Shown in pieces: positions 4,358-26,710 of a DNA stretch of 27,585 nucleotides (position 1 is its first letter; every line of letters begins with the position of its first letter). The stretch spans positions 1 to 27,585 of IMG/VR virus record IMGVR_UViG_3300034023_001319, one strand, 5' to 3'. Source of the stretch: a virus. The notes beneath the pieces are model-generated. The model was not told where the DNA came from and made no database searches. It saw only the letters and a list, made by a program, of their open reading frames with translations. Both the position numbers and the translations under genes were made by a program.

Positions 4358-5971
4358 TTATCCTCTTAAATAACTCTCTAGTGACTTTGCACGAGGCGGA
4401 AGATTTACTTTTCCCCCTCTTTTATGTTTGCGAATGTTTTTTACAAACATGTCTAATTTTTTAGCGCCTAAATCGTTATCTCCGTTACCCAATTTACTAA
4501 CAATCTGAGGACTAATTTCCATTTCTCCATGAGAAACTAATGCTTTAATCTTTTTTGCTCCTGCTAAAGAATTACCATCTCCGGCATCAGCTACTACATC
4601 AGCTGGCATTACATAAGAACGATCTAGTAAATCCCTTCTAACCTTATCATCTTGCCCCCCGCTATCACCACTTAAATAAACTATAGGACTTCTAGGGTAA
4701 TAAATTTCTTCCGTTAAATAAGCATAAGGACTACGGGCGCTTCCGCCGCCTTTCATTCTAATAGGCCTACCATCATCATCCGTATACTCAATCCAGCGAC
4801 CGGTTCTTGCAAATTCCTCAGGTGATACAACGCGCCGATTAATACGACCCATGTTCTTTATATCTTCATCTAACTGCTTGTTTTTCCGCTTTTTTTGTAA
4901 ATCGGCACGTGCGGTTTCCAGAGCTTCATCAGCTTCAACTTCAGCAATCGTCTTACGACTAGCGTTACGATATCTTCTTTCTTCCTCTGCTATTTTCTCT
5001 GGACTCTTTGGCTTCTGCCGACCGCTTACTTGCGCCGCTACCGTTCCAAGTGTTAGTAAATTCTTAGGCTCAGTTAGATAGTCTTGTAATTTATCGGTAA
5101 AACCCATATTGTCTTGTTTTTTCTGTCTATCAAGCATGTAATTATAATAGTTCTCGGCATAATCCCCGCTACTGACACCTAAACCATGACCTTGTCCTCT
5201 GCCCATACCCGAAGAAAGTGCAGTTGCGCTACTTAAAGCCCCACCACTTACATAAGGATTACTTCCTCCAAGCCCGAACAGTCCACTACTACCGCCAGAA
5301 CCACCAAGACCTAAAGCAGGCAATATCGCATTAGTACTGCCGTAATTACTAAGGCTAGAACCAAGAGCCGTTCCTCCAATGCTTCTTAGTCCAGAGCCGA
5401 GAGCAGATGCAAAAGATGGAAGAGCTGCTCCCATACCGGCTCCTTTTAAAGCTCCACTTAAAGCACTCTTGCCTCTTGCTGCGTGCTGTATTCCCTGACC
5501 GAGTGCGCCGCCGATAATGCCACCTATTCCCGGTAGCACCATGTTACCGATAACTGCTCCAGCTCCACCTCCTATTACACTTTTTATTGCTTTAAATGGA
5601 TTAGTCCAAAAACTATATTCACGAAGCCCGGTAGCAGGATTTATCGTACCACTTCCACCTAAACTTTTTAATATATGAGCTTCTATAGGATTAATATGCG
5701 CAAGCTCGGTATCGCCGTTTCTTCCGTGTCTTCTAATCAGATCGGCAAGCTTCGGTAAGTCTTCATCACCGACAGAGCCTCCTTCTTTAAAAGAGTACTG
5801 CGCTCCTGTATTATCATAAGCATTACTGTAAGACATATTGGGATCACCATAACCTCCCTCTTCATAACGAGAATCAGGCATTTGATTATCGCCATCAGAA
5901 GCTAGGTTATAAGGATCAGAACTGTTATAAGGATAGTTGTAGGTATTTAAATATGGATCGTAATTTTGCAT
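4358..5971 (-). CDS. Glycine-rich phage structural protein (537 aa)
   Basis: First gene of the minus-strand virion operon. The N-terminus is Tyr/Asn/Asp-rich (about 1-65), followed by DLPKLADLIRRHGRNGDTEL and AHINPIEAHILKSLGGSGT (about 72-110). I associate this signature with a phage protein family whose members read much like LRRHGRGGDTxLAHINPxEA. Residues about 125-270 are a glycine/alanine/serine-rich, partly hydrophobic region (GGIIGGALGQG, GLGGSGGSSGLFG) that could insert in or interact with membranes. The C-terminus has a second familiar phage pattern: GEMEISPQIVSKLGNGDNDL, then KKLDMFVKNIRKHK and LPPRAKSLESYL. Both signatures point to a virion-associated protein of tailed phages. The exact role (ejection, internal or tail) is not known. 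It anchors the phage interpretation of the whole left arm. Confidence 0.7.
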   Translation of the reverse strand: MQNYDPYLNTYNYPYNSSDPYNLASDGDNQMPDSRYEEGGYGDPNMSYSNAYDNTGAQYSFKEGGSVGDEDLPKLADLIRRHGRNGDTELAHINPIEAHILKSLGGSGTINPATGLREYSFWTNPFKAIKSVIGGGAGAVIGNMVLPGIGGIIGGALGQGIQHAARGKSALSGALKGAGMGAALPSFASALGSGLRSIGGTALGSSLSNYGSTNAILPALGLGGSGGSSGLFGLGGSNPYVSGGALSSATALSSGMGRGQGHGLGVSSGDYAENYYNYMLDRQKKQDNMGFTDKLQDYLTEPKNLLTLGTVAAQVSGRQKPKSPEKIAEEERRYRNASRKTIAEVEADEALETARADLQKKRKNKQLDEDIKNMGRINRRVVSPEEFARTGRWIEYTDDDGRPIRMKGGGSARSPYAYLTEEIYYPRSPIVYLSGDSGGQDDKVRRDLLDRSYVMPADVVADAGDGNSLAGAKKIKALVSHGEMEISPQIVSKLGNGDNDLGAKKLDMFVKNIRKHKRGGKVNLPPRAKSLESYLRG

Positions 5972-5991
5972 TTTTGCCTCTAGTCTATAAC

Positions 5992-6020
5992 AAAATAAAG
6001 GCTTTATTTTTATTATAGCA
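5992..6020 (-). promoter_or_regulatory. Extended -10 promoter and dyad operator of the virion operon
   Basis: On the minus strand a consensus TATAAT (6012-6017) is preceded by TGC (6018-6020), giving an extended -10 element; no good -35 is seen. The predicted start of transcription (about 6005) falls inside a perfect dyad, AAAATAAAG-G-CTTTATTTT (5992-6010). This could be an operator or a 5' stem-loop in the mRNA. The promoter lies just downstream of the recT terminator and 40 bases before the first virion gene, so the two operons are separately controlled. Confidence 0.5.
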
Positions 6021-6046
6021 GAAACAATCTTAATCCATGTTTTTTC

Positions 6047-6081
6047 GTAAAAAGAAAAAAGGAGCTAAAAAGCTTAGCTCC
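6047..6081 (-). terminator. Rho-independent terminator of the exonuclease/recT operon
   Basis: A perfect 8-bp stem, GGAGCTAA (6061-6068) with TTAGCTCC (6074-6081) and a 5-base loop, is flanked on its left by an A-run (about 6051-6060). Read on the minus strand this is a GC-containing hairpin followed by a U-run, the classic intrinsic terminator. It sits about 84 bases after the recT stop and insulates it from the virion promoter. Confidence 0.8.
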
Positions 6082-6164
6082 TCTAAAAATAGAAAAAAAC
6101 GAGTAATTGATAGTGTGTTCACGTTAACATATTTTAACAAGCAAATCTAGGTGTATTTTAAAAC

Positions 6165-7028
6165 TTACGCCGCCTCTACTATGCTTTGCGAATAATTATA
6201 CTGCTCGTTAATCCATTTAATACAGGATAGTTGTCTTTCCTCCCCTAAGTCAGCAATACTCTCAACACCAGCTTTACTGCACCACTTGTTTATTATCTCG
6301 CTTGGTACGTTATACAATTTAATAAGTTCTATTAACTCGGCTAAAGTTTCGCTTGGCTCTAGGGCTTTGACTTCTTCTTCCTGGTGACTTAAAACGGAGT
6401 CAAGTTTGCTACTTACTACTTGAGACTTCATTTCCAAGCGGTCATAATTTGTAACGGCTTCATTACTTTGAGTCTTAGGCGTTACATCCTTTTCCGGCAT
6501 ATCTACTACCTGATAGTCTTGCGCCTCTTCAACTGTTATCAAGCCTCCCAAAGCATCTGCAAACTTATCTCTAAGAGCAAAGCCTCTCGCTCTCATCTGC
6601 ATCATTCTTTTCGGATACTGAGTCCATGGACCGCTCTTACCCCATAAGCCAGCTTTTTTAGCATCTTCTGCGCTAAAGCTTACGGTATGCTCGGTTTGGT
6701 TCCGACGCTTAACCCTGCAAAAAGCCGTATTTGTTTTCTCATCATACCACTCCTTGATATCTTCAAATGACGAATGTGCCTGTACAAGAGCAAGTAATGC
6801 GTCGCCATACACGGAAGGTTTGCCGTTAATAACCGCTATATTCTGCAACGCCTGTATTGGCTTTAATCCAAGTTCGGCTCCCATTTGCACGGCAACTAGA
6901 ATATCTGCTGCTTTACCCTGATAAGTTCTCGGCACCATAGCACTATTTGCTATAATCGTAGCATACTCCATAGCTTCCTTTAAGTTACTCGGTGTTAATA
7001 ATGTTGTTTTTACTGCTATGTGACTCAT
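6165..7028 (-). CDS. recT: RecT-family single-strand annealing protein
   Basis: A 287-aa protein with the hallmarks of the RecT recombinase family. These include QGKAADILVAVQMGAELGLK (about 37-56), IQALQNIAVINGKPSVYGDA (58-77), a central GLWGKSGPWTQYPKRMM block (128-144) and MRARGFALRDKFADALGG (145-162). RecT proteins coat single-stranded DNA and anneal it to complementary strands, working with a partner 5'-3' exonuclease; the exonuclease gene lies directly upstream. The C-terminal about 100 residues (after VVDMPEKD) are a charged, helical extension. The operon ends at the intrinsic terminator 6047-6081. A 151-base spacer separates it from the exonuclease gene, longer than the other gaps in the operon; I see no convincing promoter there. 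The ribosome site is weak (AAGAGAT). Confidence 0.9.
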   Translation of the reverse strand: MSHIAVKTTLLTPSNLKEAMEYATIIANSAMVPRTYQGKAADILVAVQMGAELGLKPIQALQNIAVINGKPSVYGDALLALVQAHSSFEDIKEWYDEKTNTAFCRVKRRNQTEHTVSFSAEDAKKAGLWGKSGPWTQYPKRMMQMRARGFALRDKFADALGGLITVEEAQDYQVVDMPEKDVTPKTQSNEAVTNYDRLEMKSQVVSSKLDSVLSHQEEEVKALEPSETLAELIELIKLYNVPSEIINKWCSKAGVESIADLGEERQLSCIKWINEQYNYSQSIVEAA

Positions 7029-8386: not shown

Positions 8387-9046
8387 TTAAACCTCCACCC
8401 CTCTAGTTGATGAAAAGTAAGAGCGCAAGCTTTGATCATGCATGTAAGCATTATACTCTGCCTTATCAATTGCCTGCTCTAGAGCTACCGGGTCATATTC
8501 ACTAGTATCCCAATCAACACAGTAATCTTTTGCCTTTGCAAGTAAATACTCGTATTTATCAATATCAACCATTAGCCGGTAGTAGTTATCGCCATAGGTT
8601 TCATAGGGAATGTTATAAAAGTTAGCTCTTTCTATCTGTTCCTCTATAAACGCTTCCTTTGCTCTTGTAATAATTCTGGCAAATGTTTCTTTAACACTTT
8701 CTGGTAGCTCTAGGCTTTCAGTTTTAGTTTCGTGAAATTTAGGTAGTTCCGTTAGGTTATCTGGTAATTTTGCTACTTGACGCTCATTAGAAATTTTTAC
8801 CGCTTGTCTTAATCGCTCAAGATTAGAAAATACTTGCACCGCTTCTTTTTGAGGCAGTAGCATCTTCTTTAAGTATTCTTTTGCTTTGGCAACACTGATT
8901 TCTTCTAAACTCGGCATAGTAGATTCGTAATTATCATGGCTTATTAAATCTATTGTACCATGCTTTACCGAATTATTGATTTTCTCGTGATTTTTTGATT
9001 CTAAAAAAGACTCTTGACGTAAAGGTAGGGTTGAGATATTTTTCAT
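8387..9046 (-). CDS. Unknown phage protein, first gene of the exonuclease/recT operon
   Basis: A 219-aa soluble, charged, mostly helical protein of no recognised family. The C-terminal part is acidic and aromatic (NFYNIPYETYGDNYYRLMVD, about 142-161, and CVDWDTSEYDP). The start has a good ACGGAGA ribosome site at spacing 4. It is the first gene after the promoter at 9189-9217, separated by a leader of about 135 bases that holds two inverted repeats. The leader and the first few codons overlap the proposed antisense RNA and its promoter, so translation of this gene is the likely point of control for the operon. Confidence 0.65.
   Translation of the reverse strand: MKNISTLPLRQESFLESKNHEKINNSVKHGTIDLISHDNYESTMPSLEEISVAKAKEYLKKMLLPQKEAVQVFSNLERLRQAVKISNERQVAKLPDNLTELPKFHETKTESLELPESVKETFARIITRAKEAFIEEQIERANFYNIPYETYGDNYYRLMVDIDKYEYLLAKAKDYCVDWDTSEYDPVALEQAIDKAEYNAYMHDQSLRSYFSSTRGVEV
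9014..9042 (+). promoter_or_regulatory. Candidate promoter of antisense RNA
   Basis: TTGACG (9014-9019), a 17-base spacer and TATTTT (9037-9042) form a plausible sigma-70 promoter on the plus strand, inside the 5' end of the minus-strand gene 8387-9046. It faces into that operon's leader, and transcription would begin near 9049. No plus-strand protein gene lies downstream before a terminator. The -10 element matches only 4 of 6 consensus bases. Confidence 0.4.
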
Positions 9047-9048
9047 AT

Positions 9049-9172
9049 ACTCTCCGTTTATGGATTGGTTATTGAAAAGTAAGAATTGTTAGCTCTGTTA
9101 AACTGTTAATTCTTACGGATTATATAAGGTTTTCATTTTACGTCCTAAGCTCTAAACTTAGGGCGTTTTTTT
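9049..9172 (+). ncRNA. Candidate antisense regulatory RNA against the recombination operon leader
   Basis: A plus-strand promoter-like pair (9014-9042) and an intrinsic terminator (9141-9172) bound about 124 bases with no open reading frame worth reporting. A perfect 9-bp inverted repeat, GTAAGAATT (9079-9087) with AATTCTTAC (9108-9116), would give a stem with a 20-base loop. The RNA would be fully complementary to most of the minus-strand leader transcribed from about 9182. It would cover that operon's ribosome site (9051-9057) but not the start codon. This arrangement is typical of cis-antisense control in plasmids and phages. No RNA family was recognised, and expression is inferred only from these signals. 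Confidence 0.4.
9141..9172 (+). terminator. Intrinsic terminator (plus strand)
   Basis: CGTCCTAAG (9141-9149) pairs with CTTAGGGCG (9157-9165), with one G-U pair and a 7-base loop, and is followed by seven T (9166-9172). It points along the plus strand, although the nearest upstream gene is on the minus strand. It is therefore best explained as ending an antisense transcript. The same inverted repeat lies in the leader of the minus-strand operon without a U-run there. Confidence 0.75.
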
Positions 9173-9188
9173 ATTGCCTTATGAGATG

Positions 9189-9217
9189 AGTATAGAGGGG
9201 AAAGAGAGTATTGTCAA
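9189..9217 (-). promoter_or_regulatory. Consensus promoter of the recombination operon
   Basis: On the minus strand TTGACA (complement of 9212-9217), exactly 17 bases, then TATACT (complement of 9189-9194). This is close to a perfect sigma-70 promoter. The transcript would start near 9182 and read through a structured leader into the gene at 9046. The -35 box lies 10 bases beyond the stop of the winged-helix gene at 9227-9541. Confidence 0.8.
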
Positions 9218-9226
9218 ATATTTTAT

Positions 9227-9541
9227 TTAGTTGTGTAAAATATTTTCTCTAACAGAATGATATTTTACTATATCTTCAAATTTTTGTGGTTTTAGTACAA
9301 AAGAGCTTAATCTACTCCCAGGATTATTATTTCTAGTGATAAGTTTTTCTTTTTCTAAAACTTTTAAAGCTGCATAAACTGCTGGTCGAGAGACTTTAGA
9401 TAGTTTACTTAAATCTTTTATGTTAGTAATAACTATATCATCTATAGCCAATTTAATAAGAGTCTTTAATACTTCCTGATAAGCTGGAGTTAACAGTGCA
9501 TAACTATCAATAGCTTTTAATAACAATTCTTTGTTGTCCAT
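9227..9541 (-). CDS. Small winged-helix transcriptional regulator (104 aa)
   Basis: A single winged helix-turn-helix domain fills the protein. A helix around YQEVLKTLIKLA leads into DLSKLSKVSRPAVYAALKVL (about 43-62), a clear HTH with recognition helix SRPAVYAALKVLEKEKLI, followed by a basic wing (TRNNNPGSRLSSFVLK). The size and layout resemble MarR/TrmB-like or plasmid replication regulators; no closer family was recognised. It lies between the recombination promoter (9189-9217) on one side and the divergent initiator gene on the other, so it is well placed to control either one. No ligand-binding domain is present. Confidence 0.7.
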   Translation of the reverse strand: MDNKELLLKAIDSYALLTPAYQEVLKTLIKLAIDDIVITNIKDLSKLSKVSRPAVYAALKVLEKEKLITRNNNPGSRLSSFVLKPQKFEDIVKYHSVRENILHN

Positions 9542-9862
9542 CTAATTTTATAAAACCTAAAAAGATAATTTATAATTAATTTTACTTTAAATATAACACT
9601 TTTTACTCAAACTTCAATAAAACTCTTGATTTTATTAAAACAGTTAATATTCTTGTTTGTTATGTAAGTAAAAATTAGGAGGTAATAGAGAGGATTTTAT
9701 AAGAAATATGTAGAATATAAGGAAATGAAAAAAGAAAGGGTGCCACCCCTACAAGACAACACCCAAACTCCACTTATTACAATTTGGAGTATAGTGGTAT
9801 ATTGTCTCTTCGTCAAGGCACTTTTTCTAAAAAATTATAAATTATTAAAATTTTTAGAGAAT
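9542..9862. other. Intergenic control region with inverted repeats upstream of the initiator gene
   Basis: About 320 bases without a supported gene. The left part (9542-9660) is very AT-rich and could serve as a melting region. The right part has several dyads: GGGTG-C-CACCC (9738-9748), and AGACAA (9754-9759) with TTGTCT (9802-9807) enclosing ACTCCA (9767-9772) and TGGAGT (9785-9790). An open frame from 9725 crosses this part but would encode an unlikely hydrophobic N-terminus on the initiator, so I treat it as noncoding. A replication origin or an operator of the initiator gene is a reasonable inference; no iterons or DnaA box were seen. Confidence 0.45.
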
Positions 9863-10959: not shown

Positions 10960-11367
10960 ATGAGCATTCATCCAAACAAGTCCGTTAAAAGCGACTATAA
11001 ATATTTTAAAGCTGTTATAGGTGTTTTAAGTAAGGAACTAGATTACTTTGGTAGACCAAAGGAAGTGCTATTATTGAATAAAGTATCTCAAATAACTAAA
11101 GGAAATAAGCCTGTTGCCGATTATATTATGATCGATAAAAATAAAACAACGGAATGTTTGTTTGAAATAGCACGTCAGGATCTAATCAATCAGGCTATCT
11201 CATTCTACGGCAAAATACTTGATTACAAAGAAGTTAAAGTATACGACGGTATGAGTTTTTTACAGGATGAGTCTCATTGTAAGATCGGACATATCAAAAA
11301 CCTCAAAATTTATTTTGAAAAGAAAGAGAAGTCTCCTTTAAATGTTTCATTTAAAGGAGTGAGGTAG
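10960..11367 (+). CDS. Unknown protein downstream of the initiator gene (135 aa)
   Basis: Lies 8 bases after the initiator-like gene with a strong AAGGAG ribosome site, so the two are probably co-transcribed. It is a small, basic, mixed alpha/beta protein with no recognised domain; the pattern ITKGNKPVADYIMIDKNKTT near the middle looks like a beta-hairpin segment. The last codons (SPLNVSFKGV) are encoded by a perfect 11-bp inverted repeat. A replication accessory or copy-control role is possible from position only. Confidence 0.6.
   Translation: MSIHPNKSVKSDYKYFKAVIGVLSKELDYFGRPKEVLLLNKVSQITKGNKPVADYIMIDKNKTTECLFEIARQDLINQAISFYGKILDYKEVKVYDGMSFLQDESHCKIGHIKNLKIYFEKKEKSPLNVSFKGVR
11333..11359. 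repeat. Perfect 11-bp inverted repeat, possible terminator
   Basis: CTCCTTTAAAT (11333-11343) and ATTTAAAGGAG (11349-11359) flank the loop GTTTC, inside the last codons of the 135-aa gene. No T-run follows on the plus strand. The left side is A-rich, giving a loosely U-rich tail if read on the minus strand. It may end the initiator operon in a Rho-assisted way, or act as a weak minus-strand terminator for transcription arriving from the convergent transporter gene. Confidence 0.5.
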
Positions 11368-11450
11368 ATATACATCAAAAATACTAAAAATCAAAACTGG
11401 TTAGAGTTTACTTAATCACAAATATCTTTAATGATGACTAATAAGTTACT

Positions 11451-11456
11451 TATAAT
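11451..11456 (+). promoter_or_regulatory. Candidate -10 element of the alarmone-hydrolase gene
   Basis: A consensus TATAAT lies 28 bases before the ATG at 11485; no convincing -35 is seen at normal spacing. A palindrome CTATTAATAG (11461-11470) lies immediately downstream near the expected transcription start. No Shine-Dalgarno is visible before the ATG. Confidence 0.35.
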
Positions 11457-11484
11457 AGAACTATTAATAGTGTATTAATTAATT

Positions 11485-12198
11485 ATGAATTATTCAGAGC
11501 CTTGTCAATATTCGATAAGATTAATAGATAAATTAAAGTCATTAGATACTAAAAATGTACTAGATTTTGATTTAATCAATAAAGCTATTTATTGGGCTAA
11601 GAAGTATCACGGCGATCAAAAAAGAAAAAGCGGTGAGCCTTATTATTCCCATCCTTTGGAAGTTGCATATTTATTTGCTGAATACGTGGCAGTGGAAGAG
11701 ATAAAATATTATAATACTGATTTGATAATTACTGCTGTACTTCATGATACTATAGAAGATACCTCGTTAACCAAAGAAATGATTTCACAAAACTTTAATA
11801 AATCAATTGCTAGTAAAATCGAAGACTTAACGAGGATAAAATTCAACAAAAAAATTACTGCTGGAGAGACTGTAAATTTATTATTCTTACAGCATAAAAA
11901 AGATGTCTTGTATATCAAATTATTTGATAGACTGCATAATATGATAACTATTGGATGTATGACTATTGAAAAAAAGAAAAAGATAGTAGAAGAAACAATA
12001 ATACATTTTATACCACTTGCTTCTTATTTAAACGCAAATAAAGTTAAATTAGAACTAACCAGATTATGTCTTAGAGAAGAACCAAATAAACAAAATTTGA
12101 ATCTACCGATATTAAAAAAATATATCACTAATAAATCTGTTCACTTTCTTTTTCCAACTTTTCAAAATGTGATAGAGAAAATTTATAACCTAAAATGA
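11485..12198 (+). CDS. Stand-alone (p)ppGpp hydrolase-type HD protein (small alarmone hydrolase)
   Basis: A 237-aa HD-domain protein matching the hydrolase half of RelA/SpoT. YHGDQKRKSGEPYYSHPLEV (41-60) supplies H42 and H56. LHDTIEDT (86-93) supplies the HD pair (H87, D88) and the E91-D92 pair. LFDRLHNM (146-153) supplies D148 and the conserved Asn. All ligands expected for the Mn-dependent removal of pyrophosphate from (p)ppGpp are present. The synthetase, TGS and ACT domains are absent, so the likely activity is alarmone breakdown only. The last 24 codons overlap the end of the convergent transporter gene by 71 bases. Carriage on a mobile replicon suggests manipulation of the stringent response. 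Single-domain SpoT genes are common in Rickettsiales genomes and mobile elements, which supports the host assignment. Confidence 0.85.
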   Translation: MNYSEPCQYSIRLIDKLKSLDTKNVLDFDLINKAIYWAKKYHGDQKRKSGEPYYSHPLEVAYLFAEYVAVEEIKYYNTDLIITAVLHDTIEDTSLTKEMISQNFNKSIASKIEDLTRIKFNKKITAGETVNLLFLQHKKDVLYIKLFDRLHNMITIGCMTIEKKKKIVEETIIHFIPLASYLNANKVKLELTRLCLREEPNKQNLNLPILKKYITNKSVHFLFPTFQNVIEKIYNLK

Positions 12199-13450
12199 TA
12201 GGTATACTAATCAATAATATTCCCCAATTATTAAAATATTCAATTAAAAAAACTAATCCAAAAGAAGTCACTACAAACATTACCGCCCGTCCTAAAGCAT
12301 ACATTAAACAACTCATAGTAAAACGCTTAAATACAGGAAAATACTTGTAAAAAATAGGTGTTGCTGGAAAATGCCTAATAGCAAAACTTACCATCGATAT
12401 TTGTAGTAATAATAACTGAAAAGATGAATTAATATTATTTAGTAAATAAGGACATAACAAAAATAATATGGTTGTTATAGATAAAAGTACTTTAAGAATT
12501 TTTATAGGATATATTTTATAACTTAAATAAGTAATAACTAACATAGACGTCAGTTCAAATAAAATAACAATCAAGTTTTGATTAATTATTTGTCCTGGGG
12601 TGAAACCAAATTGGTCTTTCATTATTGTTCCACAATAGATATAAACAAAATAAAAAATTAATGGATAAGCACATTGTATAATGAATAAAGAAAAAGCGGT
12701 TACTTTATTAACCTTTTCTTTCCAAATAACACTACCTTCTAATATTTTTTGATCTCTATCAGTTTGTTTAATAAATTCTTGTATTCCACGTTTTGCATCC
12801 GCAAAATCAGGGGTTTCCCTCAAAGTAGTTCTTGCTATCATACCAATTACTGCTATTGCTGCTCCAAACCAAAAAGCAAACCGCCAATCTGTTGTAAAAC
12901 TAGTAACAAATGAACCAACTCCTAAAGCTAGTGTTCCTCCTATAGTAGCAAACACGGGTACTAAACCTACCATAGGGTATTGCATTGGTGGTTTGATTGA
13001 TTCAGTTATATAAACCTCTGCCCCTATAGCTTCACCCATTGCTGCCATTCCTTGGATTACACGACATAAAATCATTATACAAGAGGCAGTAATGCCTATT
13101 TTATCATATGTTGGTAACAAAGCCATAACTGTGCAACAGCCAGCCATTATAAACATTGTTAGAAGTACTGTTGTTTTGCGTCCAAGTGTATCCCCGATAT
13201 ATCCAAAAATTAATGCTCCTAAGGGTCTAAAAACATAAGTAGAACAAAAAGTAAAGGCAGCCAATAATGAGGTAATGAAGGGGTCGGTTTTAGGAAAAAA
13301 TAGCTCATTAAGCAGTACCGCCATGTGAATATAAAGCATTACGTCAAAATATTCTAAAAAAGTGCCTATAGATAAAAGTCCTACAGCCTCTTTTTGTGAT
13401 TCAGAAAGTTTATTCTTCACTATTGCTTCCATATAAATTAATAACGCCAT
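12128..13450 (-). CDS. proP: MFS metabolite:H+ symporter, ProP-like
   Basis: A 440-aa inner-membrane transporter of the MHS branch of the major facilitator superfamily, with about 12 hydrophobic segments. Diagnostic features are GTFLEYFDVMLY (29-40) and RPLGALIFGYIGDTLGRKTT (75-94), the MFS motif with conserved Asp and Gly-Arg-Lys. The string AVLLNELFFPKTDP (44-57) is typical of the ProP paralogues expanded in Rickettsia. Its substrate (proline, betaine or another small osmolyte or acid) cannot be told from sequence. A second ATG at codon 7 (MEAIVKNK) is an alternative start; neither has a clear ribosome site. Its 3' end overlaps the convergent hydrolase gene by 71 bases. It is full length with no visible damage. 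Confidence 0.88.
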   Translation of the reverse strand: MALLIYMEAIVKNKLSESQKEAVGLLSIGTFLEYFDVMLYIHMAVLLNELFFPKTDPFITSLLAAFTFCSTYVFRPLGALIFGYIGDTLGRKTTVLLTMFIMAGCCTVMALLPTYDKIGITASCIMILCRVIQGMAAMGEAIGAEVYITESIKPPMQYPMVGLVPVFATIGGTLALGVGSFVTSFTTDWRFAFWFGAAIAVIGMIARTTLRETPDFADAKRGIQEFIKQTDRDQKILEGSVIWKEKVNKVTAFSLFIIQCAYPLIFYFVYIYCGTIMKDQFGFTPGQIINQNLIVILFELTSMLVITYLSYKIYPIKILKVLLSITTILFLLCPYLLNNINSSFQLLLLQISMVSFAIRHFPATPIFYKYFPVFKRFTMSCLMYALGRAVMFVVTSFGLVFLIEYFNNWGILLISIPIILGYKFSLSHFEKLEKESEQIY

Positions 13451-13590: not shown

Positions 13591-13956
13591 TTATTTTACA
13601 ATTTGGCTACTAACAACATCTTCAAGCTCCTCATTAGTTAGAGTTCTTGAAGCGAGTACACCGTGTGTTTCTAAGCGTTTTATAGAATTTAGATATTTTT
13701 TCTCATTAATTCTTAATTTATTCATAATATCATCGTTAAAAACAACTCCTTCTTTATGTCCATTTTTAGCAATTATTAATAAATAAACCACAATATCAAT
13801 GGGTTGATATATTCCTTTTTGAAATAACATCGATAAACGAAGATTCAAACTTTTTGTAAGCCAAGTTGGGTCAGTTTCTAGGTTTTGTCTAACGAAATCT
13901 AAGACATCTTTCAGTCTCACATACTCCTCGCCGTCTATTATCAAGGGTTTAGTCAT
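13591..13956 (-). CDS. Unknown winged-helix-like protein (121 aa)
   Basis: Last gene of a three-gene minus-strand operon with the sodium:solute symporter; its start overlaps the preceding stop by 8 bases. Residues about 50-105 read like a winged helix: VVYLLIIAKNG, FNDDIMNKLRINEKKYLNSI and a turn into KRLETHGVL. The N-terminus (LIIDGEEYVRLKDVLDFVRQ) looks like a small beta hairpin plus helix, as in DNA-binding excisionase-like or MerR-like folds. No known family was recognised. A regulatory role in the symporter operon is an inference. Confidence 0.6.
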   Translation of the reverse strand: MTKPLIIDGEEYVRLKDVLDFVRQNLETDPTWLTKSLNLRLSMLFQKGIYQPIDIVVYLLIIAKNGHKEGVVFNDDIMNKLRINEKKYLNSIKRLETHGVLASRTLTNEELEDVVSSQIVK

Positions 13957-14728
13957 TTTTGAATTTTTGATAATGTTTAAAAATCAGATCTATATCTAGT
14001 TTTTCAAAACAGTGGGGACACTCTGGTTCTATAAGTGCCATCCCATAATAGTTATTAATAGCAAAATCCTCTTCTAAATCAGAATAATTACTGTGTTTCT
14101 CATCTAATTTTAGAATATTATCTTTGTTCAAGTTAACAACTAAATTACCATTATTTTCTTCGGAAAAAGTTATTAAATTTAAATTCTGTAATGATACTAA
14201 AGCATTTTTTATATTCTCTTCTATTTCATTAAAGATTTTTTTCAATTTAGTATAAGAGCTCTTTAGGATAAGATATTCTTTTTTATTTTCTCTGCTAAAG
14301 AAATAAGACAATAAATGTAAACTTAAATTGCTTCCTAACTCTATTAAATGCCCTAAATAAATATAAAAACCATATGACAAAGGTTTTACTTTATAACCAT
14401 TATATATACAAAAACCTTCATCATTATGCATTCCTCTGTAATTCATTGAACAGATGACTTCAATTGTCCTATAATCGGGTCTACCATTTGAATTGACTAT
14501 ATCATGGTAATACTCATTCCTAATGGGAGCTACTTCTCGACTTTTTAGACAGTTTATAATAAGCTGTCCTAGTTTTTTCATAAATTTATCTGTTTCTTCT
14601 TCAGATAAAGCCTGGAATTTTTTGTTCAGTTCTTTTGTTTTTATAGAATCTTTTTCATCTTGAATCCTATCTTGTTCATGAATCTCGGTATAAGGCAATA
14701 ATGTATGGTAGTTAATTTTTTCGTTCAT
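13949..14728 (-). CDS. Unknown protein with a C-terminal CPHC motif (259 aa)
   Basis: Middle gene of the symporter operon, one base after the symporter stop and overlapping the next gene by 8 bases. The N-terminal 60 residues are charged and helical. A beta-rich middle contains YRTIEVICSMNYRG and GFCIYNGYKVKPLSYGFYIY. A helical segment (about 155-205) ends in a wing-like hairpin (LITFSEENNGNLVVNL). CPHC near residue 236 could be half of a zinc knuckle; no second CxxC is visible. There are no membrane segments. No family recognised. The gene order suggests it works with the symporter or regulates it. Confidence 0.6.
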   Translation of the reverse strand: MNEKINYHTLLPYTEIHEQDRIQDEKDSIKTKELNKKFQALSEEETDKFMKKLGQLIINCLKSREVAPIRNEYYHDIVNSNGRPDYRTIEVICSMNYRGMHNDEGFCIYNGYKVKPLSYGFYIYLGHLIELGSNLSLHLLSYFFSRENKKEYLILKSSYTKLKKIFNEIEENIKNALVSLQNLNLITFSEENNGNLVVNLNKDNILKLDEKHSNYSDLEEDFAINNYYGMALIEPECPHCFEKLDIDLIFKHYQKFKND

Positions 14729-14729
14729 A

Positions 14730-16157
14730 TTATTTTCCTTTCAACTTATTTAGGATATCAAAGCATTTTAGTATTTTTTTATCTATTAAGTAGTGGGTAA
14801 TAAACAATAAGAATGCATTTAATGTCATAGTAAAGATAAGCGGTTCCTCATGAGATATAAATAAATACCATATAATCCAAAATATAGCAGTAATGATCAT
14901 AGATATCAGTACACATCTTCCGGAAATTTTGTAATTAAATATAGCCAGCATCAGAGGTATAGTAACTAGCGGCATATAAAAACCGCTTGTGAACATAATT
15001 ATTTTTAATAAATCTTGATTCCAAAAAGTTACCGCGTAAGCAAGTATCCCTATTAAAACCGTATATTTTCTTGCCATTTGTAGTTTTTTATAAGGAGACC
15101 AACTATTTTTGCCAAACGTATCATTGGCAAGCATAACTGCCGAGATATTTATATGAGAGTCAGCCGTAGACATGGCCATGGATAATATACCGATGATTAT
15201 AATTATTTTTAACCAAGGATTTAAAAGGTCTAGAAATTCCGATAGCCGATCTTCAGTAGGTAAATTGGGATTAATTAAAAACAATTGATAAGCTATGTAA
15301 CAACCGGCGAGTATTGTAAGAAGGAAACCAATGCAAGATGTAATCCAACTCCATTGAACTTGCTTTACATTAACTCCTATAGAAACTCTTTGAAATTCAG
15401 TCGGCGAGAAAGCCGGTATCATAAAGTAAAAGAATAGTGATCCCATTGTTATTAATTCTTCTTTTGAACTATTAAAAACCGACATCACATTAAATTTTAA
15501 GAGAGCATCAGTGCCGATATTTGCTTTTGGTAATCCCTGAAGTGAGGCAATAGCTATTACGAATGCTAAGGTAAATAGTATTGATTGAGCAATATCCGTG
15601 TATATAACGGAACGGACTCCTCCTAAATAACAATAATATACCGTTAATGCTCCAAAAAGCAGCGTTAATACTTCCTTTGGCATTATAGGCCAGAGGTAAT
15701 ATGCTATATTACCCGATATTTTGAATTGTATAGCAATACCGCCGCATACGCCGATTGTACTTATGATAGCGGTTAATGTTCTAACCGTTTGGCCGTAATA
15801 CTCTCCCATGTAACTTGCTACCGAAGTTTTACCTAAAACGCTATGAGCCCTAGGTATTACTACGAATGTTATAAATAATATGGATATTATCATTCCTAAG
15901 GAAGGTAATAAATATTTCCAGCCGTTATCATAGAATTTGATTAACTTAATATTAAACCCGCTAGCACTAACCCAAGTAGCTACCAGGGTGAATGCTATCA
16001 TTTTTATAGAGAAGTCCCGAGCTCCAATTGAAAACGTATGGATGGTACTTACATAGTTTGTCTTTAATCTTCCTACTATAAAAATTACAGATACAAAAAT
16101 AATCAATACAGTTGCATCGAATGCGTTTGTAAGAAACGAATTTGTAACGTAAGTCAT
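14730..16157 (-). CDS. Sodium:solute symporter (SSS family)
   Basis: A 475-aa inner-membrane protein with about 13 hydrophobic segments. The family signatures are TFSIGARDFSIKMIAFTLVA (41-60), GGVRSVIYTDIAQ (179-191), which is the SSF signature region, and STADSHIN (330-337), which carries the Na-site serines and threonines. It should couple Na+ entry to uptake of an organic solute; the substrate is unknown (PutP-like proline uptake is one option). In many alphaproteobacteria a similar symporter domain is fused to a histidine kinase. Here no kinase follows and the next genes encode unknown soluble proteins. Transcription is probably from the TTAACA/TAAGAT promoter at 16214-16242, divergent from the phage early operon. 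Confidence 0.87.
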   Translation of the reverse strand: MTYVTNSFLTNAFDATVLIIFVSVIFIVGRLKTNYVSTIHTFSIGARDFSIKMIAFTLVATWVSASGFNIKLIKFYDNGWKYLLPSLGMIISILFITFVVIPRAHSVLGKTSVASYMGEYYGQTVRTLTAIISTIGVCGGIAIQFKISGNIAYYLWPIMPKEVLTLLFGALTVYYCYLGGVRSVIYTDIAQSILFTLAFVIAIASLQGLPKANIGTDALLKFNVMSVFNSSKEELITMGSLFFYFMIPAFSPTEFQRVSIGVNVKQVQWSWITSCIGFLLTILAGCYIAYQLFLINPNLPTEDRLSEFLDLLNPWLKIIIIIGILSMAMSTADSHINISAVMLANDTFGKNSWSPYKKLQMARKYTVLIGILAYAVTFWNQDLLKIIMFTSGFYMPLVTIPLMLAIFNYKISGRCVLISMIITAIFWIIWYLFISHEEPLIFTMTLNAFLLFITHYLIDKKILKCFDILNKLKGK

Positions 16158-23308: not shown

Positions 23309-23600
23309 AGCAAAATGTGAAGAGATTGTTATAGAGCGTTATTTAAAAGGGAATATTAGCAATGAGTTTAAAGATGAGCTTTTGTGGGTCATTAACCTAA
23401 GGCGTGATAACCATCAATATTTAGAAGTATTATTTAGACTGTTAGAAGATGAGAGCTCGGAAAAGCTTAATATTCTAGAGAATATAGTAAATATGATAAA
23501 GAAACAAATTATTGCCGATAGCAGAGACATTCCGCTAAAAAATCCAAAACAGGTTATAAACAAGTTGCTAGAGGAGCTAGAAAATGAACTATCCAAGTAA
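23283..23600 (+). CDS. Unknown small early phage protein (105 aa)
   Basis: Overlaps the ParB-like gene by 26 bases; an internal ATG at 23301 (MAKAKCEEI) would reduce this to 8 and may be the real start. Acidic and helical throughout (VIERYLKGNISNEFKDELLW, LEVLFRLLEDESSEK, a C-terminal LLEELENELSK). The N-terminal block loosely resembles the 141-aa protein at 19977-20402. No family recognised. It overlaps the methyltransferase start by 17 bases. Confidence 0.55.
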   Translation: MSIINIMAKAKCEEIVIERYLKGNISNEFKDELLWVINLRRDNHQYLEVLFRLLEDESSEKLNILENIVNMIKKQIIADSRDIPLKNPKQVINKLLEELENELSK

Positions 23601-24813
23601 TCATGAAACTATCACATGGCAGGCTACTAGTATTAAACTGGCCTGCTTAAAAGAATATCCTAATAATCCGAGAAAAATAACCAAGGAAATGCTGGATAAA
23701 CTAGCTGCTCATATCAAGGAGGACGGGTATCATCAGAGAATAATAGTAGATAACGATTACACCATTATCGGCGGCCACCAGCGTAAAAAAGCTTTATATA
23801 TGGCAGGTTACGATGATGAGACTGAAATTGAAGTGTTAAAGCCGAGTAGGAAACTAACAACTGCCGAAATAGACAGGTTAAACATTAGAGATAATCTAGC
23901 GTTCGGTGAATATGACTTTGATGTACTAACGGAACGGTTTGATATGGAGGAGCTATTATCTTTTGGTATGGATAAGGATATGCTCACACCTATATTTGAT
24001 AAAGCCATATTAGAAGAAATAGGGGAAGAAGAGGAAATAGAACCGGGGGGAGAAACTACTGCTAGGCTTGGTGATATTTACCTGCTTGGGTCTCACCGTT
24101 TAATGTGCGGTGATTCTACTAATCCGCAGCATGTTGAAAAACTAATGGATGGAGCAAATCCGATTTTGATGGTAACCGATCCGCCGTACGGTGTGGAGTA
24201 TGATCCCAAGTGGCGAGAGGGATGTGATTTAGGAGTCGGCAAGCGTTCTAAAGGTAAGGTACTAAATGATGATAGATATGACTGGTCTGATGCTTATTCA
24301 TTATTTACCGGTGATATTGCTTATATCTGGCATAGCGCAAAGTATACTCATAAGTTTGCCGAAAATATAGAAAATAGCGGTTTTGATTTAATTAGTCTTA
24401 TATTTTGGGCAAAACAGCATTTTGTAATTAGTAGAGGTGATTACCATAACCGGCATGAGCCTTTATGGTATGCCGTGCGGAAAGGGAAGCAGCATAACTG
24501 GCAGGGTAAACGCGATCAATCTACCGTATGGGAAATTGAAAATAATAACTCATTCGGTAATAGTAACACGGAGGAAACCTTTGGACACGGCACGCAAAAA
24601 CCGATGGAGTGCATGCTTCGGCCTATACTTAATAACTCCGCGCAAGGCCAGAGCGTATACGATCCGTTTGGCGGTAGCGGTACTACGTTAATTGCCTGCG
24701 AGCGGTCAAAGCGTAATTGTTATATGATGGAATTATCCCCGGCTTATGTTGATGTTATAATAAAGAGGTGGGAAAAAGAAACCAATAAAAAAGCTGTATT
24801 GTTGAATGAGTAA
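23584..24813 (+). CDS. ParB-domain / DNA adenine-type methyltransferase fusion
   Basis: A 409-aa protein with GAGGAG ribosome site. The N-terminal ParB-like domain includes IIGGHQRKKALYMAGY (61-76). The methyltransferase domain has DPPYG (199-203) before DPFGGSGTT (360-368) and HGTQKPMECM (335-344) between them. The order IV then I is the beta class of N6-adenine or N4-cytosine methyltransferases. All catalytic and S-adenosylmethionine-binding motifs look intact. ParB-methyltransferase fusions are common in phages and integrated elements and modify DNA without a partner nuclease. No restriction gene is adjacent, so it is an orphan that may protect phage DNA, control gene expression or time replication. 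The target sequence cannot be read from the protein. Confidence 0.9.
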   Translation: MNYPSNHETITWQATSIKLACLKEYPNNPRKITKEMLDKLAAHIKEDGYHQRIIVDNDYTIIGGHQRKKALYMAGYDDETEIEVLKPSRKLTTAEIDRLNIRDNLAFGEYDFDVLTERFDMEELLSFGMDKDMLTPIFDKAILEEIGEEEEIEPGGETTARLGDIYLLGSHRLMCGDSTNPQHVEKLMDGANPILMVTDPPYGVEYDPKWREGCDLGVGKRSKGKVLNDDRYDWSDAYSLFTGDIAYIWHSAKYTHKFAENIENSGFDLISLIFWAKQHFVISRGDYHNRHEPLWYAVRKGKQHNWQGKRDQSTVWEIENNNSFGNSNTEETFGHGTQKPMECMLRPILNNSAQGQSVYDPFGGSGTTLIACERSKRNCYMMELSPAYVDVIIKRWEKETNKKAVLLNE

Positions 24814-25681: not shown

Positions 25682-26710
25682 ATGTTAAATGTTCTAGATA
25701 TTTTCTCAGGCATAGGCGGGTTCTCAATCGGCTTAGAAGCCGTCGGACTAGAAACGGTTGCCTTTTGTGAGATTAATCCGTTTTGCCGAAAAATATTAAA
25801 AAAACATTGGCCGTCTGTTCCGATATTTTCTGATGTTACCACTATCCATAAGGAAGATTTAAAGGCTCTGCCGTCAATTGACGTAATTGCGGGAGGATTT
25901 CCTTGTCAGGATATATCGGTAGCAGGCAAGCAGAAAGGAATAATGGCTAAACGTTCAGGATTATGGAAAGAATTTGTGAGATTAATCAATGAAATCAGAC
26001 CAAAATATGCGATTATCGAAAACGTGGCAAACCTTCGCAGTAAAGGACTTATCGCCGTCCTGCAAGATTTATGGGAGATCGGGTATAATGCAGAGTGGCA
26101 TTGCATACCGGCTTCCGCCTTTGGCGCACCTCACAGACGGGACAGAATATGGATTATTGCCCACCCCGCTTGCTTCTGCAAAGTCGGATTGTCCATCGGA
26201 AAGGAGGAGACAGAGTCCACATTTGGAGACGATTGTAAAAATGCTTCCGACCCCGACTGCAAGCGATGCGAGCATAGGGAATATAATAAGCAAAGACGAT
26301 GTTTACCTGGTAACAAAAACAGGAAGTATCCGCAAACACAACAGGAATGGGATATCAGGGAGTCTTGGACTAGCCAGATATGTAAGATTCTTCCCGACAC
26401 CGACCAGCAGGGATTACAAGGATGTGGGGGATTTGAAGAAATTAGCCCAATATGCTCACAAGAGCAGATTGGCATGTACTATTGCCGCCGAGGAATTAAG
26501 CAATGGGGAGAAGAGCCTTTAGAAGTGCCAAGGCTAAAAGATGAGAGGTTGAACCCTGATTGGGTAGAATGGCTTATGGGTTATCCTATTAGCTGGACGG
26601 ACGGAGGCAGTCGCATGCAGCGTCTTATGGCGTTAGGTAATAGTGTTGTGCCTTTGATTCCTGAGTTTTTAGGAAAAGTGGTTGTAGAACATGATAATAA
26701 TATACGGTGA
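25682..26710 (+). CDS. C5-cytosine DNA methyltransferase with frame-switched central region
   Basis: A 342-aa open frame with the core motifs of DNA (cytosine-5) methyltransferases: DIFSGIGGFSIGLEAVG (6-22), GGFPCQDIS with catalytic C75 (71-79), ENVANL (113-118), FGAPHRRDRIWIIA (147-160) and RLMALGNSVVP near the C-terminus. Between about residues 161 and 275 the protein is Cys-, Gln- and Asn-rich and unlike the family. The +1 frame over the same bases (about 26133-26522) encodes LLPTPLAS, MLPTPTASD, GLARYV and FFPTPTSRDYKD, which are hallmarks of phage methyltransferases of this type. The original frame returns at LNPDWVEWLMGYP (from about 26551). The target-recognition region is thus likely displaced by two compensating indels, by programmed shifting, or by sequence error. 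The core is intact; specificity and activity are uncertain. Confidence 0.8.
   Translation: MLNVLDIFSGIGGFSIGLEAVGLETVAFCEINPFCRKILKKHWPSVPIFSDVTTIHKEDLKALPSIDVIAGGFPCQDISVAGKQKGIMAKRSGLWKEFVRLINEIRPKYAIIENVANLRSKGLIAVLQDLWEIGYNAEWHCIPASAFGAPHRRDRIWIIAHPACFCKVGLSIGKEETESTFGDDCKNASDPDCKRCEHREYNKQRRCLPGNKNRKYPQTQQEWDIRESWTSQICKILPDTDQQGLQGCGGFEEISPICSQEQIGMYYCRRGIKQWGEEPLEVPRLKDERLNPDWVEWLMGYPISWTDGGSRMQRLMALGNSVVPLIPEFLGKVVVEHDNNIR

Follow-up and report, generated by a model that had tools for sequence, protein, structure and literature searches.

The question raised by this locus is why a virus-derived replicon carries a SpoT-type hydrolase gene tail to tail with the gene of a membrane transporter, and whether the pair serves the element. 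The window, meaning the whole stretch of DNA that was analysed, is a 27,585-base IMG/VR record, an incomplete contig that is a fragment of a phage-plasmid. In a preliminary description, the two genes were proposed to be cargo with which the element could reduce host (p)ppGpp and increase solute uptake. The comparison of related loci presented here points to a different relationship: the pair appears to be an ancient and widely conserved module, not phage cargo. The features concerned are collected in Table 1.

Table 1. Features of the hydrolase/transporter locus, in positions of the window (the dot marks a feature without strand)
Feature	Position	Strand	Basis
Conserved stretch: 5' flank of the hydrolase gene plus the gene's first third	11329..11684	+	blastn; about 79-84% DNA identity to other Megaira-type plasmids; best-aligning part of the gene
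Predicted stand-alone RelA/SpoT-type (p)ppGpp hydrolase (rickSpo-like small alarmone hydrolase), 237 aa	11485..12198	+	Pfam HD_4; TIGR00691 (partial); PDB phmmer; fold match; catalytic residues
71-bp coding overlap of the hydrolase and MFS tails	12128..12198	.	ORF table; geometry
MHS/ProP-like MFS transporter of the hydrolase-linked subfamily, 440 aa	12128..13450	-	MFS_1; TIGR00883; alignment; MFS tree, apart from generic ProP-like MFS
Separate SSF (sodium:solute symporter) gene, possible extra member outside the conserved pair	14730..16157	- (MFS strand)	Pfam SSF

Family searches of the ORFs in the window identified RecT, RecE, DnaB, a terminase small subunit and ParA, and the backbone aligns in blocks, at 79-88% DNA identity, with the complete circular Candidatus Megaira plasmids CP113869 and AP017967. 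The former, a complete circle, carries ParA, terminase, tail-fibre and GroES-like genes. ParA, the terminase small subunit and RecT/RecE are found in the window itself, and circularity is taken from CP113869; judging by gene content and similarity, the replicon is a Candidatus Megaira-like phage-plasmid. Chromosomal contamination, which the preliminary description had named as a finding that would overturn its reading, is excluded because phage-plasmid backbone flanks the pair on both sides. None of the RAGE hallmarks (F-type T4SS tra genes, integrase, transposase) is named among the family-searched ORFs of the window. A toxin-antitoxin or defence system was also considered and rejected: the neighbouring ORFs contain no synthetase domain, so that no small alarmone synthetase toxin adjoins the hydrolase as in a toxic-synthetase/SAH pair, and there was no PADLOC hit. 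On plasmids pPCS201 and pMegNEIS296, a synthetase-only RelA_SpoT gene (9024-9638, minus strand, in loci L006 and L007) divergently adjoins the hydrolase/MFS pair, so that genes of a synthetase, a hydrolase and a transporter are neighbours there. Two further ORFs of the window were recognised by eye and from annotated relatives, namely a ParB-like plus DNA methylase ORF at 23584-24813 (+) and a cytosine methyltransferase ORF at 25682-26710 (+), the latter overlapped by a second long frame.

The hydrolase ORF matches Pfam HD_4 (E 7e-17), solved Rel/SpoT hydrolase domains in the PDB (phmmer, 8.6e-23) and the N-terminal hydrolase part alone, positions 1-160, of the TIGR00691 spoT_relA profile (1.4e-36); comparison with Pfam and with TIGR00691 revealed no synthetase domain in it. 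Its AlphaFold model, based on an alignment of 29 relatives, has a pLDDT of 85.5, with low confidence in the tail encoded by the overlap. Rel and SpoT catalytic domains rank first in a Foldseek search with this model, and the fit to the Pseudomonas aeruginosa small alarmone hydrolase is close (TMt 0.83, rmsd 2.4 Å). Residues R47, H56, H87-D88, E91-D92, D148 and N152 are all present, and the metal-ligand and catalytic pattern H..HD..ED..D..N is complete. The synthetase-free HD domain, the active-site residues and the Rel/SAH fold are those of a small alarmone hydrolase (SAH) of the RelA/SpoT superfamily, and the nucleotide cleaved is probably (p)ppGpp. In a tree of HD domains, stand-alone and MFS-fused hydrolases split from long RSH proteins (100/100), and this separate branch rules out the hydrolase halves of long RSH as the origin of the window-type proteins; the rickSpo subgroup name is applied by reference to this tree rather than to the original rickSpo HMM. 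Closest relatives come from Candidatus Megaira plasmids, and according to the HD tree and a similarity search the window hydrolase is nearest to those encoded by pPCS201 and pMegNEIS296, which are plasmids other than the backbone relatives. In the public annotation of CP113873 and CP113869, the hydrolase is called a 'SpoT-like (p)ppGpp synthetase domain protein', though the aligned family is hydrolase-only.

The transporter ORF matches Pfam MFS_1 (3.7e-23) and the metabolite/H+ symporter profile TIGR00883 (6e-51), the latter scoring 173.7 bits where the cut-off is 443. It is a TIGR00883 relative outside the curated family, and the name 'ProP' denotes only a resemblance; the profiles ranked next are those of ProP and shikimate transporters. 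In a quick MFS tree, the hydrolase-linked transporters form their own branch, separate from the four generic ProP-like MFS included. The two genes of the window are convergent and have their last 71 bp in common. No terminator was found inside this overlap, and a terminator-like hairpin of 12 pairs (11333-11359, minus strand) precedes the start of the hydrolase gene. Consequently, the MFS transcript might cross the whole hydrolase gene in antisense. Upstream of the MFS gene and on its strand, the SSF gene and, after it, two small ORFs of helix-turn-helix-like type form a block whose members touch or overlap at their ends (13591-16157). This block was not seen in the opened Megaira plasmid regions; its SSF protein shares 24% identity with the corresponding part of one of the Amoebophilaceae SSF-hydrolase fusions discussed below. 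The preliminary description was right on the components: a hydrolase-only SpoT-type HD protein with intact active-site residues lies beside an MHS transporter, although the latter scores under the family cut-off, on a phage-like Rickettsiales replicon. The convergent overlap and the conservation of the module were missing from it.

Whether the arrangement is peculiar to this replicon can be judged from its relatives. Of nine further Megaira plasmid regions inspected, eight contain a convergent hydrolase/MFS pair, one with its MFS gene split by a transposase; the ninth has the hydrolase and an MFS remnant. Of the 67 stand-alone hydrolase ORFs across the loci retrieved, 46 overlap a convergent MFS gene of the same subfamily, and 40 of these 46 overlaps share one phase (length mod 3 = 2), which is also that of the window. 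The 68 non-redundant pairs comprise 49 overlapping convergent pairs, 9 that are convergent without overlap within 1.6 kb, and 10 fusions. A less selected sample, consisting of the best hydrolase match from each of 30 Rickettsiales genomes, gave 18 overlaps with an MFS gene, 2 cases within 70 bp, 3 with a gap of ~1.1-1.2 kb, and 7 hydrolases with no MFS inside 1.5 kb. By a rough estimate, the probability of this overlap count arising by chance is 1e-40 or less, which rules out accidental overlap. In a profile of 344 genomes, an MFS of the linked subfamily occurs in 63 of 68 genomes with the hydrolase versus 11 of 276 without a strong hydrolase match, at thresholds chosen by the analyst and for genomes that are not independent of one another. 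The pair is also present on further viral contigs, on chromosomes, and on both conjugative-type and other plasmids.

Purifying selection acts on both genes: dN/dS is 0.08-0.37 for the HD protein and 0.03-0.17 for the MFS protein. Alignment gaps aside, the catalytic residues are kept in 58/58 paired and 24/24 fused proteins, and this conservation together with dN/dS rules out degenerate hydrolases. The two putatively Orientia-like genomes G186 and G187 contain dozens of rickSpo hydrolases, mostly broken and without an MFS of the linked subfamily, so the hydrolase can also spread alone. Several variations of the locus were seen. In Rickettsia tamurae (L029), a BNR_2 (sialidase-like) gene at 5704-6801 (-) lies between the convergent hydrolase and MFS genes; gaps of the same size occur at several Rickettsia loci, L029 being the sole case in which the filling was examined. 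At G148:C1:224879-237882 and G149:C2:32195-48426, MFS paralogues of the subfamily, about ten at each place, lie in tandem, and the hydrolase gene is found elsewhere in the genome. In the Rickettsiales genome G191, two hydrolase/MFS pairs are mirrored head-to-head (L187, 999-5915), apparently as an inverted duplication.

The two parts also occur as single proteins. In Candidatus Fokinia, MFS and hydrolase form one protein of 655 aa, and MFS-hydrolase fusions with open frames of 640-705 aa are encoded by at least 10 Rickettsiales genomes, in several copies each, up to about six. The search was made in whole-genome records, and none of the fused forms comes from a phage record. The MFS part comes first and the hydrolase is the C-terminal domain. 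The 24 aligned fusions are monophyletic according to the HD tree (100/100), and the quick MFS tree likewise unites them in one clade. Such a protein cannot arise from an unfused pair by read-through of a lost stop codon, as the two genes converge; two different arrangements therefore keep the same two parts together. The AlphaFold model of the fusion (pLDDT 84, pTM 0.80) suggests a defined domain arrangement. The top 50 hits of a fold search with it list MFS folds only and no hydrolase fold, because the MFS part dominates the alignment. A third architecture is found in the Amoebophilaceae family, where proteins of ~1150 aa consist of an SSF symporter, extra predicted membrane helices and a C-terminal hydrolase domain. 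The SSF...HD query matched in 18 of 21 genomes of this family, often in many copies, and all 11 near-full-length proteins scanned contain SSF plus HD_4. Two of the genomes (G352, G346) encode about 20 or more such fusion proteins each.

At the site shared with related plasmids, the hydrolase/MFS pair is far more divergent than the backbone (blastn), and the only DNA similarity left within it covers the first third of the hydrolase gene, with a weaker match in the 5' portion of the MFS gene. Among Megaira-type hydrolases, the N-terminal 60 residues have a mean identity of 84% versus 49% for the core. The divergent pair on a similar backbone, the closest relatives on different plasmids, and this contrast between N-terminus and core indicate that the module has been exchanged and recombined between replicons. 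Distances between HD proteins and between MFS proteins, with fusions left out, are moderately correlated (Mantel r 0.29; 0 of 5000 permutations), which indicates that the partners also recombine with one another.

These observations bear on function. A synthetase domain was found in 4/4 and 10/11 of the sampled host genomes, mostly within one long Rel-like protein, so the alarmone can be made in most of these hosts. Intact active sites, low dN/dS and the host synthetases together speak for a (p)ppGpp hydrolase coupled to a transporter, with uptake tuning alarmone breakdown and mobile elements spreading the unit; this reading is considered somewhat probable. Hydrolase and MFS would then work as a unit in which a transporter in the membrane is coupled to a (p)ppGpp hydrolase in the cytoplasm; the hydrolase is a separate protein in the window and a C-terminal domain in the fused relatives. 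The transporter would import a host-derived solute, and the hydrolase would degrade the (p)ppGpp that the Rel/SpoT synthetase of the host cell produces. The input is most likely the transporter: in the presence of substrate, local alarmone hydrolysis would be favoured and growth arrest relaxed. Mobile elements, the phage-plasmid of the window included, would spread and shuffle the module. Observations that weigh against this reading are the many hydrolases of G186 and G187, the eleven genomes with the MFS and no strong hydrolase match, the seven sampled hydrolases that lack a nearby MFS gene, and the moderate correlation of HD and MFS distances. Of the earlier proposal that alarmone removal is tied to solute uptake, the physical linkage stands, with genes that overlap or, in relatives, are fused; a biochemical or regulatory coupling, and its direction, are what these arrangements suggest. 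A broader generalisation is more tentative, possible rather than probable: Rickettsiales and Bacteroidota symbionts may have many MFS or SSF transporters each tied to its own (p)ppGpp hydrolase, with uptake erasing the starvation signal of a central synthetase, and phage-plasmids may be among the traders of these units.

An alternative that is unlikely, but not negligible, is hitchhiking: two common mobile cargo genes of Rickettsiales would travel together with no functional coupling, and their accidental overlap would be kept since splitting it damages both. SpoT hydrolases and ProP-type transporters have each been reported as RAGE or other mobile cargo (PMC10732058, PMC4316617, PMC6300072, PMC5615194), the mostly fixed overlap phase is as expected of one inherited arrangement, and the poorly modelled tail of the hydrolase may reflect a drifting stop codon, but in-frame fusions of both domains go beyond simple read-through of a convergent layout. 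The fusion of a second transporter superfamily (SSF) to the same hydrolase domain, as well as the phylogenetic profile, likewise argue for coupling. Metabolic salvage is an improbable reading, in which the MFS would import a nucleotide-like or phosphorylated host compound for the HD enzyme to hydrolyse, the two acting as a transport-and-trap unit and not as an alarmone regulator. Obligate intracellular bacteria do need imported metabolites (PMC5615194), and small alarmone hydrolases can be promiscuous, as shown by a Xanthomonas enzyme that cleaves several alarmones and NADPH (PMC9765508). However, the active-site pattern is that of alarmone hydrolases, and one hydrolase domain fused to both MFS and SSF, families with different typical substrates, better fits a common output with variable input.

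The original proposal, in which the element would use reduced host (p)ppGpp and increased solute uptake to keep the host cell growing to its own advantage, is also given little credence. The pair does lie on a phage-plasmid, and on related plasmids at the same site, and the hydrolase is accompanied by an MFS or MFS remnant in every Megaira plasmid region opened. The gene-content comparison with other Rickettsiales plasmids envisaged in the preliminary description thus confirmed recurrence of the pair, but not phage specificity: chromosomes and conjugative-type plasmids carry the module equally, the fused forms come from whole-genome searches, and the same phage-plasmid backbone holds divergent, exchanged versions of the pair. 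As a general explanation, phage-only cargo is ruled out by the chromosomal and conjugative-plasmid copies and the whole-genome fusions.

The individual components of the transporter-coupled hydrolase are familiar. The rickSpo group comprises hydrolase-only RelA/SpoT homologues of Rickettsiales and Amoebophilus, multi-copy and associated with transposable elements (Atkinson 2011, PMC3153485). The window hydrolase resembles them in being hydrolase-only, with the same fold and active site; the description of rickSpo, in the part of that paper considered here, concerns the hydrolase alone, without a transporter partner or transporter fusion. Mobile hydrolase-only spoT genes are RAGE cargo in Rickettsiaceae (PMC10732058, PMC4316617) and occur on Rickettsiales mobile elements in a further report (PMC6300072), whereas the window pair lies on a phage-plasmid, tail to tail with a specific MFS gene, and no RAGE tra genes were seen. 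The ProP-type (TIGR00883) symporters of Rickettsia are MHS-type MFS proteins that have proliferated in Rickettsiales (PMC5615194); the window MFS differs in its own branch relative to the four generic ProP-like MFS and in its linkage or fusion to a hydrolase. Thus, rickSpo hydrolases and ProP-like transporters are each already known as Rickettsiales mobile cargo, and no earlier report of a tail-to-tail MFS/SpoT pair or of an MFS-hydrolase fusion was found in the open-access literature.

Two published puzzles meet at this locus. The numbers and architectures of hydrolase-only spoT genes were described in an Orientia mobilome paper as 'deserving of future investigation' (PMC10732058), and a metabolic reconstruction of Rickettsia left the substrate ranges of the ProP-like paralogues unresolved (PMC5615194). 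The physical link between hydrolase and ProP-like transporter, together with the natural fusions, may offer one answer to both. Homologues labelled 'spoT ... sodium glucose cotransporter' are listed for Amoebophilus and Cardinium in one phrase of PMC6232779, and this combination of an SSF transporter with a SpoT-type hydrolase corresponds to the third architecture. Relative to the window pair, the SSF-hydrolase proteins have a transporter of another superfamily, are far larger, and were found here only in Bacteroidota symbionts. The fusions make the transporter-hydrolase idea testable with a single protein in E. coli; if true, it would link nutrient transport directly to (p)ppGpp breakdown. 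A transporter fold serves as the input of a signalling protein in SSF-domain sensor histidine kinases such as CbrA. The output of a transporter-hydrolase would differ, being a (p)ppGpp hydrolase and not a kinase.
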